From the NCBI RefSeq assembly GCF_026210795.1, contig NC_089433.1, forward strand, positions 4,923,001-4,987,000: DNA of 64,000 bases, read 5' to 3'. The translations under genes were made by a program, and so were the position numbers. Under the pieces are notes generated by a model. That model was not told where the DNA came from. It ran no database searches and saw nothing but the letters and a program-made list of their open reading frames with translations. This document shows positions 32,640 through 58,259 of this stretch, piece after piece (the first letter of the stretch is position 1; every line of letters starts with the position of its first letter). The DNA is from Rhizophagus irregularis (taxonomy: Eukaryota; Glomeromycota; Glomeromycetes; Glomerales; Glomeraceae).

Positions 32640-33085
32640 CGCCATTCGTCCGGATAATAAACTTTTTTGGATATTTTAGTTTAGATCTAATAAATATTGA
32701 TACTTCCATCTTAAACGGGTTAGTAGGTAGAATAACATATAATTATTTTTTTATATGTTATTATAAATTTTATTAAAATAATAAAAGAAATGCGCGTTAC
32801 TAACAAATATATATATATATATATAAACTTTTTAGTTTTTGATCATCACAACAAAACATTAATACATTTATTAAAAAAAAAATAAACTATTGTGAAAAGT
32901 ATGTGCTATTCCCCTAAGGAAATCAATAGTAATTTTTTGTATTTATTAAATCTAACAAAGAAATACGTGTTACTAACAAAAAAAATTCCCTATTTCATAT
33001 AAAGATATATGTAAAATATTTATAAAATTTTTACATTTAATTTCATATATATGTCGGTGAAACATTTTTGTCGGTGAAATGCATA
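32640..33085. mobile_element. GGGTC/CACCGACA-family repeat, right copy of an inverted pair
   Basis: The inverted counterpart of 26805-27240, with matching blocks over more than 400 bp. It ends outward in GTCGGTGAAACATTTTTGTC, that is, two CACCGACA motifs on the other strand. A short CCCTAACCCTAA run follows at about 33102. Confidence 0.7.
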
Positions 33086-33365
33086 TGCGCTAATCTATAC
33101 CCTAACCCTAAATTTTTGAGATAACCCCAAATTTTGTAAACCAATCATAATGATAGTCAAATCACCTGACATTATGGTAACACCAATGACACAAAATTTT
33201 TTATATATTGTTTCGATTTTTCTCTTATAGCAGTAAAGAAATATGATATTGAGACTCGTACTGAATTTTAATTACCGTACTTATCACATTTTTGTAGATC
33301 CGTTGTACAATTTTTTATATCATGTTAATTTTTTTTAACGCGTCAAAAAAACTGTTACTTTCTAA

Positions 33366-35635
33366 ATGTCAAATTCTAATCAGCAAAGACCTTATGAAGA
33401 AGAAAATTACCCTATTTCACCTGAAATAATATACTATGGTGACCGAAAATTTGTTTATATTGTCATTCAAGAAGGTATCTACCCACCGGCTGTGAATTAT
33501 ACTGAAGCGCCTAATTATTTTCCTATACCTGATAATTATACTATTAAAACTACCTGGGGTCGGGCTAATAACAGCCGTACTATTCAATGTTCTATTTACT
33601 ATGTAGAAGAAAAACCTCATTACTTAATTTGTTTTGGAGATAATTTACAATATCAAGTTTTTTCAGCTCAATCACCATTTGATGCTTCTGTTGAACTACA
33701 CAAAGTAAGTTATTATATGTTTATTATTTAGAAAATTTTAAAAAAAATCATAAAAGAAGGTATTCTAATATATACATACTTTATTAGATTATAACACCGG
33801 ATAGGAGAACTGCTGTTTCTGGAGTTCATCTTTTTGGACTTCAATTAAAATGCATTAATAGAAATCGCAAAGGTAGACCACGTGAATTGAAACTTCATAA
33901 AGAATCAAGCAAAACTACACAAATTAAACGTGCAAAAGGTCTTGCAAAAAAAGAACAGGTGCACTTTGAAAATACAATTAAAGATTTTTACAATCCCAAA
34001 GATCGTGTAGTTTTAAAGGCTATAGATTTTACTGTAGAAAATAAAGAATACCATGTAACATTTGGTGATGAGAATTATGTTAAAAAAAAACAAAAATTGC
34101 AATCAATTGCATATGTACAAGACATAGAAAATATACCTCGTGATGCATATCGTCATCTTGCAGCTGTAGAATCAATATTACCACGAGAATATGCTATTTC
34201 TTAAACCCGTCAAGAGATTAATGCATATATGGAAGAATTAATACCCATTAATTTCATTGATTTAAATTCTACCATTATGCAAGAAGGATTTTTGGAAGAA
34301 CCTGATATAACTGATCCATTAATTATTGAACAAGTTATTAATGCAACTGGAAAAGGTGCTTACCGAAGTGTTAAAAAAATTCTTGAGTATATAATACCAT
34401 CATATGTTGAAAAGGGAATATTAGATCCTGCAATACCAACTATTCATCTTCGAATATCTGGTGATGGGCGGAACGTAGGACGAAAGGTGAAGCATGTGAT
34501 GATTACCATAGCACTATTGGATGATTCAATAAACATTTGTAAGCCCAATTACCATTATACAACTATCTTATTTCCGGGAAGTGAAAATTATCCAACTCTA
34601 AAAGTTGCAGCAAATGCTCTTACTCAGGAATTGCAAGAACTGAGTAATGTAGGAATAGTTATCAATAATACTCTTTGGAATTTTGAGTTTTTTTTTAGCT
34701 CAGATTGGAAATTTCTCGCTACCTGTTTAGGTTTTAATGCTGCAAATTCCAATAATTTTTGCCCATGGTGTGAAATAACAAAAAATCAACGTGGAAATGG
34801 GCAAAATGACTGGACAATTAGTAAATCAATGAGTAGTTTAAATGAAAATTCAACAGCATACCCTGGTCATAAATTACCTCCACTTTTCAATATGATTTCA
34901 CTTAAAAATCATGTTCCAGATAAACTTCATATAATGTTACGTATTACTGACCGTTTATGGGAGTTAGTTTTACAAGAAATCAAAAATGAGGGATTATTTA
35001 ATGACATAACTCGGAATATTATAATTAAGGAGATGGAAAATTTAAAAATCAGGTTTGAGTTTTGGAATATTCATGGTACTAATAATTGGAATTACACTTC
35101 CTTAATGGGTGATGATAAGCTTTGTGTTCTTCGAAACTTTAATTTGACAAAACTTTTTGATCCAGAACGAGCCGCATTAATTAAAAGTTTGTGGGATGGA
35201 TTTGCTGAATTATATGATCTTTTAGGAGAAAAAACAACAGATCCACAATATTTTCGTTTAAAAGCAAAAGTATGGTGTGAATTATTTTTGAAAAAAACGG
35301 TAATAGATTCCAAAACTAATACTATTTTAGAACAAGGACTTTATCGATCATCAGATATAACCCCTTATATACATGTTTTAGTATCACATGTTTGGGAATT
35401 TATGCTTATCCATAAAAGGTGGGGATTAAACGCATTTTCGTGTAGTGCTGTTGAAAAAAAGAATCACGATCATGTCTGTTATTTTTTTAAGAAAACTCTC
35501 AAGAATGGCGGAAAATTTCAAAATAAAACATCAGCAATTTGTGAAATTTTGGAACATGAAAACCGACTTTTATTTTATACTCAAAATAACATCTCTCTTT
35601 CCTATCCAAAACCTCAATATATTCACATTTTATAA
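33366..35635 (+). pseudogene. Cassette copy 1, gene A: transposase-like protein with a premature stop
   Basis: Two exons, 33366-33704 and 33788-35635 (donor GTAAGT, acceptor ATTAG). The joined frame has 728 codons before the final stop but is broken at codon 252 by TAA at 34202-34204. The homologous position in copy 2 is Gln, so a single CAA-to-TAA change is likely. The conserved core has GDGRNVGRK (Asp339), SSDWKF (Asp419), CPWC (Cys438/441), PPLF, DKLHIMLRITDRL and SAVEKKNHDH (Glu669). Asp, Asp and Glu at these positions could be a DDE-type active site with a CxxC zinc site, an inference from conservation between the two copies. The gene is convergent with gene B (35738-36382). It is not a named family I can recall. 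Confidence 0.75.
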
Positions 35636-35737
35636 TTTCTTTTAATACATTTTATATACATTGAAAAAATTGTCTTTAATTAAAAGAAAAAATTCTAAAC
35701 ATATGTATATAATTTTTTTTTCTATTACAATAAAATT

Positions 35738-36382
35738 TTAGATTTGTCTCACCCAAAAATGTATGTATATAAATCCTGCTTCACAATAATTCTCTTTTGC
35801 ATCTTTTTCACCTTTAATTTTCCATTCAATAATAACTTCTCCAGGATTATATCTAGATTTGCGTCTATGAGTGGCTATACTTTCAGTAGCACAACGAGTT
35901 GCAATAGCCAGTGGATTATTTTTCAAATGCTCAGGTGGATCATTAAATAAAACAACATAAGTTTGTTGTTCTTCATCATAAAATTTTCGACCCCACAATG
36001 GATTATTCAAGATTTCACTTAATATTTGATATCCAGCAGATCCTCGGAAAATACACTTGTAGACATTTCTATTGCTATGATGATGGATATACCCTTTGAA
36101 AATATCAAAAAACTGATGTTCAGTACATGCAAGCGACACTAATTGACGACCTCCCTTTTTAAATCCATGTGGAAGTTTGCGGTGAATTAAATAAACCAGA
36201 ATACTTTTGAATTTTTCATTATTTGTTTCTGGTAATTTATCCAAATCACTATGTGAAATATTATATCTTTTCACAATACTCAAATGCCGTGAAAGTCCAC
36301 CTTGTTTCTTATATCTTTTTTGACAAGTAGGACAGATAAATTCTGATGCAGAAGTAGTAAAAGACGTTGTAAGTGTTGACAT
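35738..36382 (-). CDS. Cassette copy 1, gene B: zinc-finger partner protein
   Basis: A 214-residue protein starting at the Met at 36382 (MSTLTTSF); an in-frame Met 21 codons upstream is less likely because a good acceptor (TTTTTTTCAG) lies between them, suggesting an upstream exon or leader intron. Residues 15-33 resemble a C2H2 finger (FICPTCQKRYKKQGGLSRHL), but the second His is not at the usual spacing; the next His is residue 44. The rest contains VYKCIFRGSAGYQILSEIL, VVLFNDPPEHL and VIIEWKIKG, which align with gene B of copy 2. It is convergent with gene A, with 102 bp between the stops. The role is unknown; it could guide, bind or regulate the gene A product. Confidence 0.7.
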   Translation of the reverse strand: MSTLTTSFTTSASEFICPTCQKRYKKQGGLSRHLSIVKRYNISHSDLDKLPETNNEKFKSILVYLIHRKLPHGFKKGGRQLVSLACTEHQFFDIFKGYIHHHSNRNVYKCIFRGSAGYQILSEILNNPLWGRKFYDEEQQTYVVLFNDPPEHLKNNPLAIATRCATESIATHRRKSRYNPGEVIIEWKIKGEKDAKENYCEAGFIYIHFWVRQI

Positions 36383-37840
36383 ATTAGTAATTGAATCTGA
36401 AAAAAATATAAAATATTTTAATAAAAATAAAAAATAGTTTTGCAAAAACTAATTTTATTTACAACTAATAACTGGTAACATTCGAAATTGCGAGATGCCA
36501 ATTGCCTTCTACTAGTCTTCCACTACTCAAACTCATCGGTTTTAGACTGCGCTCATCGGTTAGACGCGTTTTTTAATATGTTATTTTTTTTTTAAGGGTG
36601 CGTTCGCTAAATTTGATCATGAGAATTTTTTTTTTTACTAATTGTAGCTGTGTAACGTTGATCAAAATTACTATATAAAATTAGGCCCAATTTTGATAGT
36701 TAGCCGATATGGATTGTCAGTGAAGGTGAGTTAAACGCGACCCGTGCCCGGGTGCCGTGCCACAAGTTGACGATGTGCCTCAAATCAACGATCGGCTCCC
36801 ACCTTTATAATGCCTTAAGAATTTTCTAGAATTACTTTTCACATAGTAATCATCAATGATTATCGTCAATTTGGAGCATATTGAGATTTCGGGCAAAACA
36901 TTAACATGCAATACTTAAAAAAAGCTCAATGTAATGTGAACAATTGATACGACAGAGTATACCCAACCTGCCAGAAGCATTTGGACGGCACTTTTTCAAA
37001 TAATGGTGGTATTTTATAATTCTGTGATTGACAAATAACAAATCCCTAAATTAAAAAATTTTCATCTATTGAAGTTAGAAACATGAAAATATCGTCATTC
37101 GATGTCACATCATAAGTTCATTCAACGTCTTTGTTAATTCTGCGTCCAATTAGTAAAACATCATTAAAATGTATTGAATTTCAAAAATCAATTTTTAACA
37201 TGCAAAGCGTAAAAGCGTTACATCGTAGAAAGACGGTCCAAAGCTCATTAATAGATTTGTCATAATGAATGCAAAATACATTATATTGAAGTGTATACTA
37301 ATATATATTTTTATTATTTGATTTTCTTTTTCTTAATATGAGTTTTTCTAACATTGCGCAAAATTTTCAAAATGTTACACAGATAAATCCATCCAATAAA
37401 GTCAAGCAAAGTATGGTCACGTGGTTTTCAGGTAGCACACCATACGGTTTAATTTAAGTATCGCTAATAGTATATTTAATTATGTACAAAGGCTAAATGT
37501 AATTAATCATTTCGATCATGCTTCTTGAACAAAAAAAACTAAACAATAGTAAAAATGTATGTAGTGTATGCGTTTTTGGTTAAAAACAAGTATACATATA
37601 TGAATTTGTGGAATTTGTGGCTTACATATAGTATGGAAATTTGATCGTACACTACATATACATAACCCCGATGGTACGTGATTTGCCTAATGTGTAGTTT
37701 AAAATGAAAGTCTAAAAATGGTGTCAAAATAATATCATTTTTGCCACTTTTTATTGTATTTTCTATTTTTTTTTCTATTGTTAATAACCTTTTTTTTTTT
37801 TTTAAGAAAAGAATTTAAAGTATTTTTTTTTTAATTATTT
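36383..37840. other. Intergenic region
   Basis: AT-rich; no gene seen. At 36726-36743 the complement of GGGTCGCGTTTAACTCAC appears, identical to the left terminus at 26805 but inverted. A GC-richer patch lies at 36735-36790. Confidence 0.45.
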
Positions 37841-53705: not shown

Positions 53706-54363
53706 ATGTAGTTATTTCATAAAAAATACGCTAATTTATTTAATGTTTTAATTATTTAATTATTTTTTTTGATTACGTCATACGTCAAAACTGTATGAAG
53801 TTACGTCCATGATGTTACGTCACTTGAGACCACAAAAGTTTATACCACTATTTAATAATAAAATTATGAATAATGTTTTTAAGCAAGAAAAATTTATTTT
53901 TAAAATTTCAAAAAAAAAAAATTTTTTTTTTAAGATCGTAAACTTCTGACATGCGTCAGATGTCGATACTCGATAATACGTTAGAGAATGATTAATGTTG
54001 GCCAACTTTCTTAAGGCATTATAAATTTGGAATAAATTATGAGATTTATATTTTTAATTTTTTTTTTTGGATTTTCTATTTTCTTATGTTAATTTTTTTT
54101 ATAATGTTAATAAATCATTCCTAATGAAATCCTTTTATTGTATCGGTGTTTGGAAATGACACTATTTTTCGGATTAGGAGTCATATGTTGGCATTTGTCA
54201 TTTCACAAATGACACCGAGAATGTAATTTGACCGTCATTTGCATCATCATATGGGCCAATTTGACTCCTCCTCAATTTTGTCACACAGATCAACAATGTG
54301 ATTATTGCATGTACTATACGATATTTATTCAGTAATCGTTGTACAGTAGTTTTTCGCGTCCTG
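53706..54363. other. Intergenic region
   Basis: AT-rich. At 54170-54280 there is a weak inverted repeat (GGAGTCATATG ... CATATG ... GACTCC) with internal ATTTGTCATTT motifs, perhaps a MITE remnant. This is the upstream flank of cassette copy 2. Confidence 0.4.
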
Positions 54364-55139
54364 ATGGAAAACCCGTTGTCTATTTGCTGTAAGCTTTGTT
54401 TTAAAGCTTTTACAACTTATCAAAAATTATTCGTTCATGAAAGAAATAAACATTCGCACAATAAAACAATACCCCATTTCTATTCTCTTCCTCGTCCTAC
54501 TTCGGAACAAATGTCTCAATACATAAACTCCTTTATAATTCTTATTAAAAAAAACTAGGTTTTTCTCGACATGCCATTGGGAAAAAACGCTTTTCAATCG
54601 AAACATTTCCAGAAAACATATTTGTATATCTATTTAAAGATGAAGAAAAGTTCAAATACAGTCCTGCTAAACATAAATATCAATGTTATTTTGGGGGGTT
54701 AACAGGAGAAAACAGACTTAAGCAAATACTTCACTATGATCAGTGGAGTTTCCGACAAAATCCTCTAACTAATACTAAAGGTTATGTCTTACTTGAAGAT
54801 TATGAAAATACGTATCAAGTTAAATTTATATGGAGCCAGACGGTATTATTAGAGAATAATAGAAAGTTCACATTAGGAAGAATGACATGTAATTTTATTA
54901 CAGACTCTGGAGAATTTCAAGAAAAGTAATGAGTTTATTATTATTTTTTTTTTAAAATTTACATTTATTCATAATTTTTTTATTATAGTAACATAAACCA
55001 AACACCTACACCAAATTCACAATTTTCAATATTTCAAGAAGATACATCATCTTTATCCAACAATTTAAAACAGCCTGTTAAGAAGAAATTCCGTTACATT
55101 TTACCTCGGCCACTTCAAGATATGAATCAGAGTAAGTAA
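54364..55139 (+). pseudogene. Cassette copy 2, gene B: zinc-finger partner protein, frameshifted
   Basis: The frame starts at ATG 54364 and has a complete C2H2 finger (C9, C12, H25, H30 in CCKLCFKAFTTYQKLFVHER). It ends at TAG 54556-54558, just after a run of eight A. The homologous protein continues in the next frame from 54555 with GFSRHAIGKKRF, HKYQCYFGGLTGENRLKQIL and YQVKFIW. A GT-AG intron follows (54926-54988) and then a last exon to the stop at 55137-55139. A one-base length change in the A-run therefore separates the halves; it could be a real mutation, an assembly error or ribosomal slippage. It aligns with 35738-36382 over most of its length. Only 9 bp separate its stop from that of gene A on the other strand. 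Confidence 0.7.
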
Positions 55140-55148
55140 ATTCCACTT

Positions 55149-57783
55149 TTAGTCTTTGTTTTCTTTGTCCCCTGCATCAATATGTCGCATCAGAATTTCT
55201 TGCGGCGTATTATTTATTAAATAATATAACTGACGATTTTCAAACTCCATAATATCATATACTACAGGTTTTCCTCTGGTTCCACCACCCATAGTTGTTC
55301 CACAAAAAAATAGTCTAACCTAAAATTTATAGATAAAAATAGAGATAACGTAATTAGTCAAACAAAATGATTTAAAAAAAAAAATAAAAGTGATATACCT
55401 GATTATGGTTTTTTTTTTCAATGCTTGAAGTAGAAAAAACCCGCAATCCCATATTTTTTTCCTTTAGATTTCGCAAAAATTCTGGAATGTGCTGGGAAAA
55501 AACATGCATATAAGGGGTAACATCCTCTTTTCTATATAAACCCGGTATTTGTGATGCTGAGTTCATTTGCCCCTGACTTGGCCGACAAAACAATTTAATC
55601 CATTGCTTTGCTTTATTTTCGAAATTATCAATTTCTGAATATGTTAGATTAGGACTTCTCAAAACTAAGTATAAATCATAAAAATCACGCCATAGTTTTT
55701 GAATTTCTTCACCACGTTTTCCTGAAATAAAATTAACAATAGGGAAATGTTGCAAAACCTTTTTCTTGTCAGGTCCCATTAATGAGGTCCAGTCCCACTT
55801 GCCACTATTTGATCTTGATTTAAAAAATTCAAAATGAACTTTAATTGACTTCATGGTTTGTTCTATTTGATTTTTAATTTCTCGTTCAAATTCCCTTTTT
55901 TTGAATAAATCATTAAAAAAACATTCCATTAACACATCTGAAATACGTAATAATAGATGTAATTCGTTTGGAATGTAATTTTCTTGCTTAATAGCAGGAA
56001 ATAAAGGTGGTTTTTTTTGACCTGTTAATTTAAAATAATGTTTATAATTAATTTAACATAAATTATTTTAATAAGTTTACACTTACACTTTGTATTTTTA
56101 TTAATTGGCCAACATAAATCTACATTCCAACGATTACTTGCTTCACAATCACAATATAGGCAAAAATATCTTGCATTTGGTGCATTTAATCCCATTATAT
56201 TATACATAAATTTCCAGTCACCAGAAAAATATAATTCAATTGGCCAATGCACACCATCAACAGATATTCCATTTTCTTGAAGATCTTGGAGCTGATACTT
56301 AAATAGATTTCCAACTTTAGCTAATGTTTCATATTTTTCTTTACCTATAAAAAGGCAAATACTAATTTCTCATTATTTAATAAATGTTCTAAAAAATTAC
56401 AAAATTAATACTACCTATACTGATGATCTGGTTTTAATACTTCATCTTTTTCATTTAATAAACAAATAGTTAACATCACATGATTCTGTTTGCGGCCCAC
56501 ATTTCTACCGTCTCCACCAAGTTTCAAATTAATTGTATCTCCTGGTTGAAGAATTGGAGGATTTGATTCATTCCAAATAGGAATAAATATTTGAAGAAGA
56601 TTTCTAATAGATCGATAAACACCATTACCAATTTCTTGTTCACCAACCATGATTCCATCAGGATTGCTTTGATGTTCATCATCATCATCAAGTTGATTAA
56701 CCTCTTTATTAAGATTAATTGTTCCGATTGGTATTTGTTCATTGATTAATTTTGTAATTTCTATTCTTCTTTGTGCAACTTGATATTCACGTGTCAATCG
56801 TGCTTCTACAGCAGCAAGCCTTCGGTAACCATCACGTCCTAATAAAGCTTCATCACAGGCACGCACATAGGCATCTAATTTTATATGATCTAATAATAGA
56901 TTGTATTTTATATTAATAATATGATCTTCATATTCCAATTCCATATTACGTAAGTGAATTGGCTCCCCGGACTCTGAAACCATCCGATGTTGTAAAATAA
57001 GCTGTTTGATTTTCTTGTGAGCATCTCTCCCAAATGATGCATATCGTTTATTTTGTTGTGATACTGATACTTCACTAAGGGGTCGCTTTCTTTTGTCAAT
57101 ATTAGTAGTTTTTGCTATAGTTAATTCTTCAGTTCGTGCTTGATGTAATATTTCAATATCTAATCCAAAAACATGTATCCCAGAAAGTCTAGAATTTTCT
57201 CGGCTAATTCTCTATAAAAATAGATGTTACATTTTTAATATTTTTAGAAATTATAGTTAGACATAATAATTAATACATTAAATAATTTCTAATTTCTAAA
57301 AATTTACCTTTAAAAAAGCATTTATTGCCCCACTTGCTGATCGTTCACTAGATATTGAATATTCTGCCCGTCCTTCTTTCCATGTTATAGTGTATAAAAC
57401 CTTGTTCACATTAATGAATGATTTTGTTATATAACAGATAACAAATTACGCTTATTAGTTTAAGATCATCACTCACTTTATTTACCGGGATGTATTTCGT
57501 TTCACAACGTATTGCTTTGTTTGCAGCTTCCGTTTCTATGATGTATCCATCTGGAATTTGATATTGAACGATGCTCCTACTACTTTTTTGCGTGTATTTA
57601 ATATTTTGTGGATAGTATCCAAGTGCTATTACCTTATACCTTGAATGAACATTTCCGATAGAGTATAAGGCATCTATGTAAGGATTATTAGGATAATCAT
57701 GACAAAAAACTCTGGCGACCTATATAAATTATAAGAAATTTAGCAAAAATCTAACAATAATTATATTATTGCTAACTCACCAT
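55149..57783 (-). CDS. Cassette copy 2, gene A: intact transposase-like protein, seven exons
   Basis: Exons 57783-57781, 57719-57477, 57400-57308, 57211-56415, 56361-56087, 56021-55399 and 55319-55149; all introns are GT-AG and the joined frame of 735 codons is open (734 residues). Exon 1 is just the start codon. Conserved with copy 1 are GDGRNVGRK (Asp347), SGDWKF (Asp427), CLYC (Cys446/449), PPLF, NELHLLLRISDVL, WTSLMG and SSIEKKNHNQ (Glu672). The Asp-Asp spacing (80) and Asp-Cys spacing (19) are identical in both copies, and an intron falls after codon 113 in both. The N-terminal ~110 residues are beta-rich and poorly conserved. I infer a DDE-type transposase or a domesticated derivative, probably nuclear; the superfamily is not identified. 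Confidence 0.8.
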
Positions 57784-58259
57784 GGTGCAATTCTTTTATA
57801 AAATGTGACTAAACTTCGTTTTAAGTGCAACTATTTATAAAGGTTCGTATAAGACTACTTTTTATAATATTTCTTAATTTTGTTAATTTCGAAATGAAAC
57901 TGATCTAAAACTGATCTGAACTTGCGATTTCAATAGCGAAAAGGTTATGTCCTGTGCGGTTATTGGATTTCTTTTTTTTTCACGCGTTTTTGGTACTTTT
58001 TTGGTGGGAGTTTTTTTTATCACACATTTTTGGGTGGTACACCAGTGGTACAACTCACGATCTTGGGTGGTACAACTCGTCAACATCACATAAACTTATT
58101 TAGTGAGATGAGCACGATCAGCCCATATGTTTGTCATTTGTCATTAAATACAGAAATATTATTGGACAATCTAACATTTACCTCCCAGTACAGGGACGGT
58201 GATTTATGGCATTTTACAATATATCACAAAAGTCACAAAATTTTGTGATAAACACAAAT
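57784..58259. other. Upstream flank of cassette copy 2
   Basis: No gene. Two copies of GGGTGGTACA lie at 58032-58080, one in a short repeated block GGTACAACTC. I looked for a terminal repeat matching 54100-54360 and did not find one. Confidence 0.4.

Follow-up and report, generated by a model that had tools for sequence, protein, structure and literature searches.

Does a pair of genes lying tail-to-tail in the genome of the arbuscular mycorrhizal fungus Rhizophagus irregularis form a mobile element and, if so, of what kind? The question is raised by a stretch of 64,000 nucleotides (hereafter the window; assembly GCF_026210795.1, contig NC_089433.1, positions 4,923,001 to 4,987,000), in which a first-pass annotation had described a transposase-like gene A and a C2H2-like gene B as a convergent cassette at positions 33366-36382, repeated elsewhere in the window, and had proposed it as either a new type of DNA transposon or a domesticated system. 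The two genes do lie tail-to-tail at those places, and they belong to a real, recently mobile two-gene DNA transposon, which is ordinary as a transposon but has an unusual target duplication and an unusual partner gene.

The complete element (copy 1) extends over 33082..36711 on the plus strand (3,630 base pairs, bp) with both genes within its ends. Its limits were set by abrupt ends of homology: a copy on contig C10 (L002) is 99.56% identical to it over 3,636 bp, and the homology breaks off sharply on both sides. The annotation was right about the gene pair but not about the limits of the unit, which reaches beyond the two genes both here and in the second copy of the window (copy 2, 54248-58129). 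A left terminal inverted repeat is located at 33082..33095 (plus strand, CATATGCGCTAATC) and a right one at 36698..36711 (minus strand, CATATCGGCTAACT), the latter matching the left end at 10 of 14 positions, and the element is flanked by a 1-bp target duplication, a G at 33081 on the left and a G at 36712 on the right. In the genome searched (147 Mb, 32 contigs), gene A produced at least 94 matches, many of them with stops. Homology between full-length copies breaks off sharply at identical points, and identity between copies on different contigs reaches 99.56%, several pairs exceeding 99%. In 11 representatives, between 9 and 14 of 14 positions of the terminal inverted repeats pair between the two ends, with a consensus of about 14 bp (CATATssGCTgATC). 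A genome search for the left-end pattern of copy 1, in which as many as 3 mismatches were allowed, located 18 instances compared to 0 for a reversed control. Of the 29 copies tabulated, 28 have ends of the form CATAT..ATATG, the exception being L042 with a mutated left end; this fraction is not unbiased because the copies were partly found through that motif. The identification as a DNA transposon is thus borne out by abrupt ends, terminal repeats, a 1-bp duplication, empty sites and copies more than 99% identical.

Insertion of the element duplicates exactly one base. Following the check for flanking inverted repeats and target duplications that the annotation had proposed, 43 elements were examined and both were found: the two ends were located in 29 elements, while 14 (L007, L011-L014, L023, L024, L026, L027, L030, L033-L035 and L040) were set aside, with one or both ends not found by motif or outside the fetched piece. 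The base before CATAT is the same as the base after ATATG in 27 of the 29 copies, a number reached in 0 of 200,000 trials of a permutation test on the flanking bases (maximum 20). The exceptions are L009 and a copy on C30 (L042/L043), whose left end is mutated, and element L027, completed afterwards with L062, also has a matching flanking base (1/1). Exact flank matches of 2, 3, 4 and 5 bp were detected in 2/29, 2/29, 0/29 and 1/29 copies, respectively, and none of the other flank offset pairs exceeded 16/29. As the flanking base varies between copies (A, T, G or C), the duplicated base comes from the target. A phrase search of the available literature, which other wordings may have escaped, found no report of a DNA transposon superfamily with a 1-bp target duplication, its one result being a LINE-1 preprint on a different matter.

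Empty sites gave the same result. The filled site of L015 reads TTGCTCTA, then the element, then ATAGCATC, and the corresponding empty site reads TTGCTCTATAGCATC in all three fetched paralogues, at 97-99% identity. When joined with one A, the flanks of L015 match copies of the target repeat over 300 bp with equal length, the nearest at 99% and six more at 97% identity. The insertion of L028 also yielded one base: the junction is free of gaps in the alignment with three of the four paralogues fetched (identities of 82, 74 and 74%), the fourth having been left out. As for the target repeat of L015, three of its copies (C29:435092, C14:924259 and C3:416220) have a Transposase_21 (EnSpm) match at a distance of about 1 kb, which makes it probable that one transposon has inserted into another.

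Minor observations on the ends and interior of the element were also made. Just inside the left terminal repeat of copy 1, at 33100-33111, lies a telomere-like CCCTAACCCTAA run (two units of the common telomere repeat), which is also present in the left ends of L002, L004, L005 and L008 of the copy 1 subfamily, possibly by chance. A left-end sequence with 2 mismatches at C16:1846377-1846403 has no gene A match nearby among those listed and is perhaps a non-autonomous or decayed copy. Internal repeats were considered as protein-binding sites and rejected, the families displayed being AT-rich or two-copy and chance-like. Searches of viral and prokaryote contigs gave 46 and 57 pattern matches, none of them confirmed as a relative.

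Gene A of copy 1 consists of exon 1 (33366..33704, plus strand, an open frame with a GT donor), an intron of 83 bp (33705-33787, plus strand, GT..AG) and exon 2 (33788..35635, plus strand), which contains the putative RAG1-like transposase core. The joined frame was checked and reads D, D and E at codons 339, 419 and 669, the residues that the annotation had singled out as candidates. Predicted catalytic Asp419, within FSSDWKF (34703..34705, plus strand), would be the counterpart of RAG1 D708, and a CPWC zinc pair (34760..34771, plus strand) that of C727/C730. Asp339, within GDGR (34463..34465, plus strand), and Glu669, within EKKNH (35453..35455, plus strand), are also predicted to be catalytic and were matched by eye to D600 and E962, respectively, the pairing of Asp339 with D600 falling beyond the stretch aligned by HMMER and hhalign. 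The distance between the two Asp is 80 in both copies of the window, as the annotation had noted, with a splice site chosen by eye in copy 2. Codon 252 of copy 1 is an in-frame premature stop (TAA, 34202..34204, plus strand) where relative L005 has Gln, so that copy 1 is broken and is not expected to produce the whole protein.

What type of enzyme could gene A encode? Comparisons of sequence and of predicted structure suggest that it is most likely a DDE transposase of the RAG1/Transib type, with weak sequence likeness to RAG1, and that its D, D and E are likely the catalytic residues of an RNase H-like fold. In the predicted model, strands and helices follow one another as in an RNase H core, and the two Asp come directly after the first and fourth long strands. 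A Foldseek search of the Protein Data Bank (PDB) with this model returned RAG1 in its first two rows (6dbu, E=3.0e-4, and 6dbt, 7.7e-4), followed by HzTransib (6pqr, 1.1e-3) and mouse RAG1 (6v0v, 1.2e-2), the first unrelated row having an E value of 0.13, and with VIA-align rows 1-30 were all RAG1 or BbRAGL (Z 9.0-7.5). When a profile of 11 gene A members was searched against PDB sequences (hmmsearch), zebrafish RAG1 was matched with E=0.15, in an alignment that pairs FSSDWKF with the D708 region and CPWC with CTLC. Comparison with mouse RAG1 by hhalign gave a score of 33.4 (P 0.0019), the controls reaching at most 24.0 in 60 shuffles and 19.9 when reversed. By the same method, a local EnSpm profile scored 35.8 (P 0.002, without shuffle control) and a local Plavaka profile 18.0 (P 0.28), the latter derived from five 3.8-kb pieces by taking their longest frames, which are partial and of which some may miss the domain. 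Moreover, counterparts that are invariant could be proposed for eight RAG1 residues (D600, D708, C727, C730, H795, H937, H942 and E962): those of D, D, C, C and the first H in 11/11 members, and those of H, H and E, spaced as H-x4-H, in the 10/11 members covering them. The distance from the second D to the C is 19, and the C-C and H-H distances equal those of RAG1.

Several points weigh against this assignment. In the profile search of PDB sequences an unrelated lysozyme chain outranks RAG1, and the H..H stretch (PYIHVLVSH with NYLHKTLAH) scores below zero in the HMMER alignment; the program alignment covers only the second D via CxxC to H795, the first D and the E being placed by eye. For the structural model only window rows were aligned, and its quality is poor (mean pLDDT, predicted local distance difference test, of 50.3), so that the fold match covers only part of the chain. 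Its root-mean-square deviation (rmsd) to RAG1 is about 17 Å in VIA-align, which therefore backs the topology and not the details. According to the program's own note, a Z near 8 can reflect a common arrangement, and P element transposase, with Z 6.2 and an rmsd of 5.1 for 136 residues, is level with HzTransib (6.2-5.7). The hhalign probability for the gene A-RAG1 pair is 14.5%, and with the same thin profiles hhalign detected no link from RAG1 to either EnSpm (P 0.5) or Plavaka (P 0.64); as these accepted relatives went unlinked, the method proves or excludes little here. The fold check proposed by the annotation thus came out in favour as regards the core order and the RAG1 and HzTransib rows at the top of Foldseek, and fell short in the quality of the model. 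Pfam scans of gene A, including 11 members at E<=10, revealed no transposase model and only weak matches under cut-offs, with the limit that HMMER filters drop weak matches. Under that same limit, hAT, Mutator and KDZ, to none of which the annotation had been able to assign gene A, are absent from its Pfam matches.

We compared the element with the known systems of this kind. Its relatives in the CMCT clade, which is grouped by transposase motifs, have target duplications of 2 to 5 bp, and the element has the motifs and ends of this clade without its duplication length (PMC12730594; here and below, statements on papers given by PMC number refer to the available parts of their text). With Transib and RAG1 it shares the core fold match, HzTransib being third in the Foldseek search with a low-confidence model. 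The terminal heptamer of Transib is CACWATG, which, with its CAC resembling a recombination signal sequence, differs from the CATATNN at the ends of the element. Transib also has one gene versus two, and a 5-bp duplication (PMC7204232) versus 1 bp here (27/29, with a 5-bp match in 1/29). In RAG1 the D-D distance is 108, compared to 80 in gene A, and there is no significant sequence match. RAG-like transposons (RAGL; ProtoRAG, TransibSU) resemble the element in having two genes usually tail-to-tail, a RAG1-like transposase and inverted repeats, but their partner is RAG2L (kelch and PHD), in contrast to a C2H2-like protein with no detected kelch or PHD domain, and their 5-bp duplication and other ends (PMC7204232, PMC4411706) differ from 1 bp and CATAT. 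EnSpm/CACTA elements share weak profile similarity over PG..EL..D..CxxC. In En/Spm the second protein, TnpA, binds the element ends. The CAC..GTG ends and 3-bp duplication of EnSpm/CACTA (PMC12730594) contrast with CATAT and 1 bp here, and Pfam Transposase_21, a model with at least 155 matches across this genome, had no match in the 11 gene A members at E<=10. Plavaka and ESTA share the CMCT motifs, ESTA having also been recognised through RAG1, and the ends of PlavakaB (CATCA..TGATG) start like those of the element (PMC12730594). Nevertheless, the TGT..ACA or CATCA..TGATG ends and 2-3 bp duplication of Plavaka, and the TA duplication of ESTA, differ from CATAT ends and one variable base (PMC12730594). 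The Plavaka model of Pfam (PF18759), with at least 123 places in the genome, likewise had no match in the 11 members at E<=10, and Plavaka was rejected as nearest relative on the hhalign P of 0.28 (from partial frames). Chapaev and Chapaev3 have 4-bp and 3-bp target duplications, respectively, compared to exact matches in 0/29 and 2/29 copies here.

As the element fails the tested marks of Transib, RAGL, EnSpm, Plavaka and ESTA, it appears to be a RAG1/CMCT-type transposon without a named lineage, set apart from its relatives by the features reported. The "new type" of the annotation holds in this respect only, although the transposase itself would be of the RAG1/Transib/EnSpm kind (CMCT clade). 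We lean slightly towards the fuller claim that it represents a recently active lineage of an arbuscular mycorrhizal fungus, distinct from all named RAG1/CMCT ones and the first of them with a 1-bp duplication (a 1-nucleotide-stagger transpososome) and a dedicated C2H2 partner, a pairing that arose independently of RAG1-RAG2. A rival reading, to which we give distinctly less weight, would place it as an aberrant member within a CMCT lineage that has a name already, be it Transib, Chapaev, ESTA, EnSpm or a family deposited as "CMC". Such a placement would agree with a fold and motifs that belong to the whole clade, with the similar hhalign results for EnSpm and RAG1, the former without shuffle control, and with the occurrence of Transib and of new CMC families in R. 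irregularis, as reported in PMC11075540. It is at odds with a duplication of 1 bp instead of 5 (Transib, RAGL), 3 (EnSpm), 2-3 (Plavaka) or TA (ESTA), with CATAT ends instead of CAC..GTG, CATCA or TGT, and with the lack of Plavaka or Transposase_21 Pfam matches in 11 members, a comparison outside which the Chapaev, Mirage and Lanisha proteins fall. Transib, CMC and Plavaka families, new CMC families among them, have been reported in R. irregularis, two thirds of whose transposable elements were called unclassified (PMC11075540). Recent expansions of CMC, hAT, MULE and others, and uncharacterised repeats over 24% of the genome, have been described (PMC8647823), and 20 Transib-like proteins were counted in fungi (PMC9435367). 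The main text of PMC12730594 does not mention Rhizophagus, and our phrase search of the literature returned no RAG1-like Rhizophagus transposon and no report of EnSpm together with Chapaev in Glomeromycotina. For Transib in arbuscular mycorrhizal fungi it pointed to PMC11075540 and to a review on another subject.

The second unusual feature is gene B, located in copy 1 at 35738..36382 on the minus strand. To quantify its linkage to gene A, the matches of four genome searches for both genes were joined into clusters, leaving out rows overlapping the first gene A loci, several small fragments and the 11 last short matches; all counts that follow are among the matches listed. Of the 129 gene A clusters, 117 have a gene B no more than 15 kb away, compared to 4.7 expected from random placement, which supports the earlier proposal that the two genes travel together, although at this distance a few pairs may span neighbouring elements. 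Within 3 kb, gene B accompanied 99 of the 129 clusters (92 convergent), and in a smaller locus set, with a limit of 12 kb, a B was present near 77 of 81 gene A clusters, in 63 cases in convergent order. Against this linkage, gene B went undetected within 15 kb of 12 of the 129 gene A clusters, and gene A within 15 kb of 38 of the 157 gene B clusters; gene A without a gene B neighbour, which the annotation had named as evidence to the contrary, thus exists in a minority of clusters. The convergent order, which the annotation took to be conserved, is usual (101 of the 117 pairs, the rest having B upstream on the same strand in 10 and on the other strand in 6) but not obligatory, since C32:130837-136396 (L062/L027) is a 5.6-kb element with B then A on the same strand, its own ends and a matching flanking base. 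A divergent pair on C27 (L063/L064) showed a doubtful right-hand motif and no left end, and no end motif was found in L065, fetched for another divergent pair, so that divergent orders are unproven as single elements.

Gene B is most likely a C2H2-like protein, with a role in transposition that we infer. It carries an N-terminal C2H2-like finger followed by a conserved domain of unknown fold. The Pfam C2H2 model matched 6/6 scanned members at E<=1 (best 7.7e-5), the window copy being below the curated cut-off, and a profile search of the PDB also detected zinc fingers in that part of the protein. Neither kelch nor PHD families appeared among the Pfam matches of these six members at E<=1. The conserved second part gave no convincing match, and the structural model of gene B has a mean pLDDT of 39.

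Taken together, these data make it highly probable that the element is a two-gene cut-and-paste DNA transposon with a RAG1/Transib-type gene A, a 1-nucleotide stagger and an accessory gene B, where we infer catalysis by gene A, the origin of the duplication in the stagger and the part played by B. In the proposed mechanism, gene A would bind the terminal repeats of about 14 bp, cut the element out of the donor DNA and join its ends to the two target strands one nucleotide apart, a stagger that would yield the single duplicated base. Gene B would most likely act as an accessory DNA-binding protein, either by recognising the ends or by aiding assembly, and would fill the place of TnpA in En/Spm or of RAG2L in RAG-like transposons. 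Alternatively, gene B could be a passenger that evades silencing or regulates the element from outside the transposition machinery. TET/JBP dioxygenase passengers are carried by related fungal transposons (PMC12730594), and the A/B order differs between subfamilies. However, B is kept with gene A proteins only about 40% identical, its six scanned members all match the C2H2 model (the window copy below cut-off), and a passenger would presumably have been lost more often, so that we find this explanation doubtful and favour the accessory role.

Two further explanations fare much worse. AT-rich flanks do yield chance matches, and the 1-bp duplication might then be an artefact of mis-set ends with a longer true duplication. 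Against this very improbable reading, exact 2-bp and 4-bp matches occur in 2/29 and 0/29 copies, other offset pairs match in at most 16/29, and the empty sites hold one base. The domesticated system of the annotation, suggested by synteny of the pair in diverged copies, can practically be discarded in view of the many copies, many with stops, the ends and 1-bp duplications kept (both ends in 29 of 43 elements, with the duplication in 27) and the 99.56% identity between copies on different contigs.

The element bears on a wider question, as its cutting enzyme appears to resemble the one that shuffles human antibody genes. A RAG1-type transposase with an apparently non-RAG2 partner would make recurrent recruitment of helpers testable, and a 1-bp duplication, below the 2-5 bp of the relatives, asks how one fold could set such different cut distances. 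It also puts a name on part of the unclassified repeats of R. irregularis (PMC11075540).

The second pair of the window confirms the recurrence noted in the annotation, being an inverted, intron-rich homologue of copy 1 with 38-43% identity in the three exon regions compared. Complete copy 2 extends over 54248..58129 (3,882 bp), with gene A on the minus strand, and is flanked by a 1-bp target duplication at 54247 and 58130 (T on the plus strand); a copy on C17 (L041) is 99.4% identical to it over 3,889 bp. Its gene A exon regions, all on the minus strand, are located at 56414..57211 (with GDGR), 56082..56345 (with GDWKF and CLYC, the exon start being probably about 20 bp upstream), 55396..56022 (with HxxxxH and EKKNH) and 55152..55319 (probable last exon region). 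Gene B of copy 2 (54364..54929, plus strand) has at least 2 exons with provisional splice sites, the first containing a finger CxxC-x12-H-x4-H, and relatives of the second were found in the genome. The space between A and B holds a Plavaka match and an EnSpm match in two copy-2-type elements (C8:899739-900335 and C29:436404-436895), and the long A-B distances in these two elements may follow from such matches inside them.

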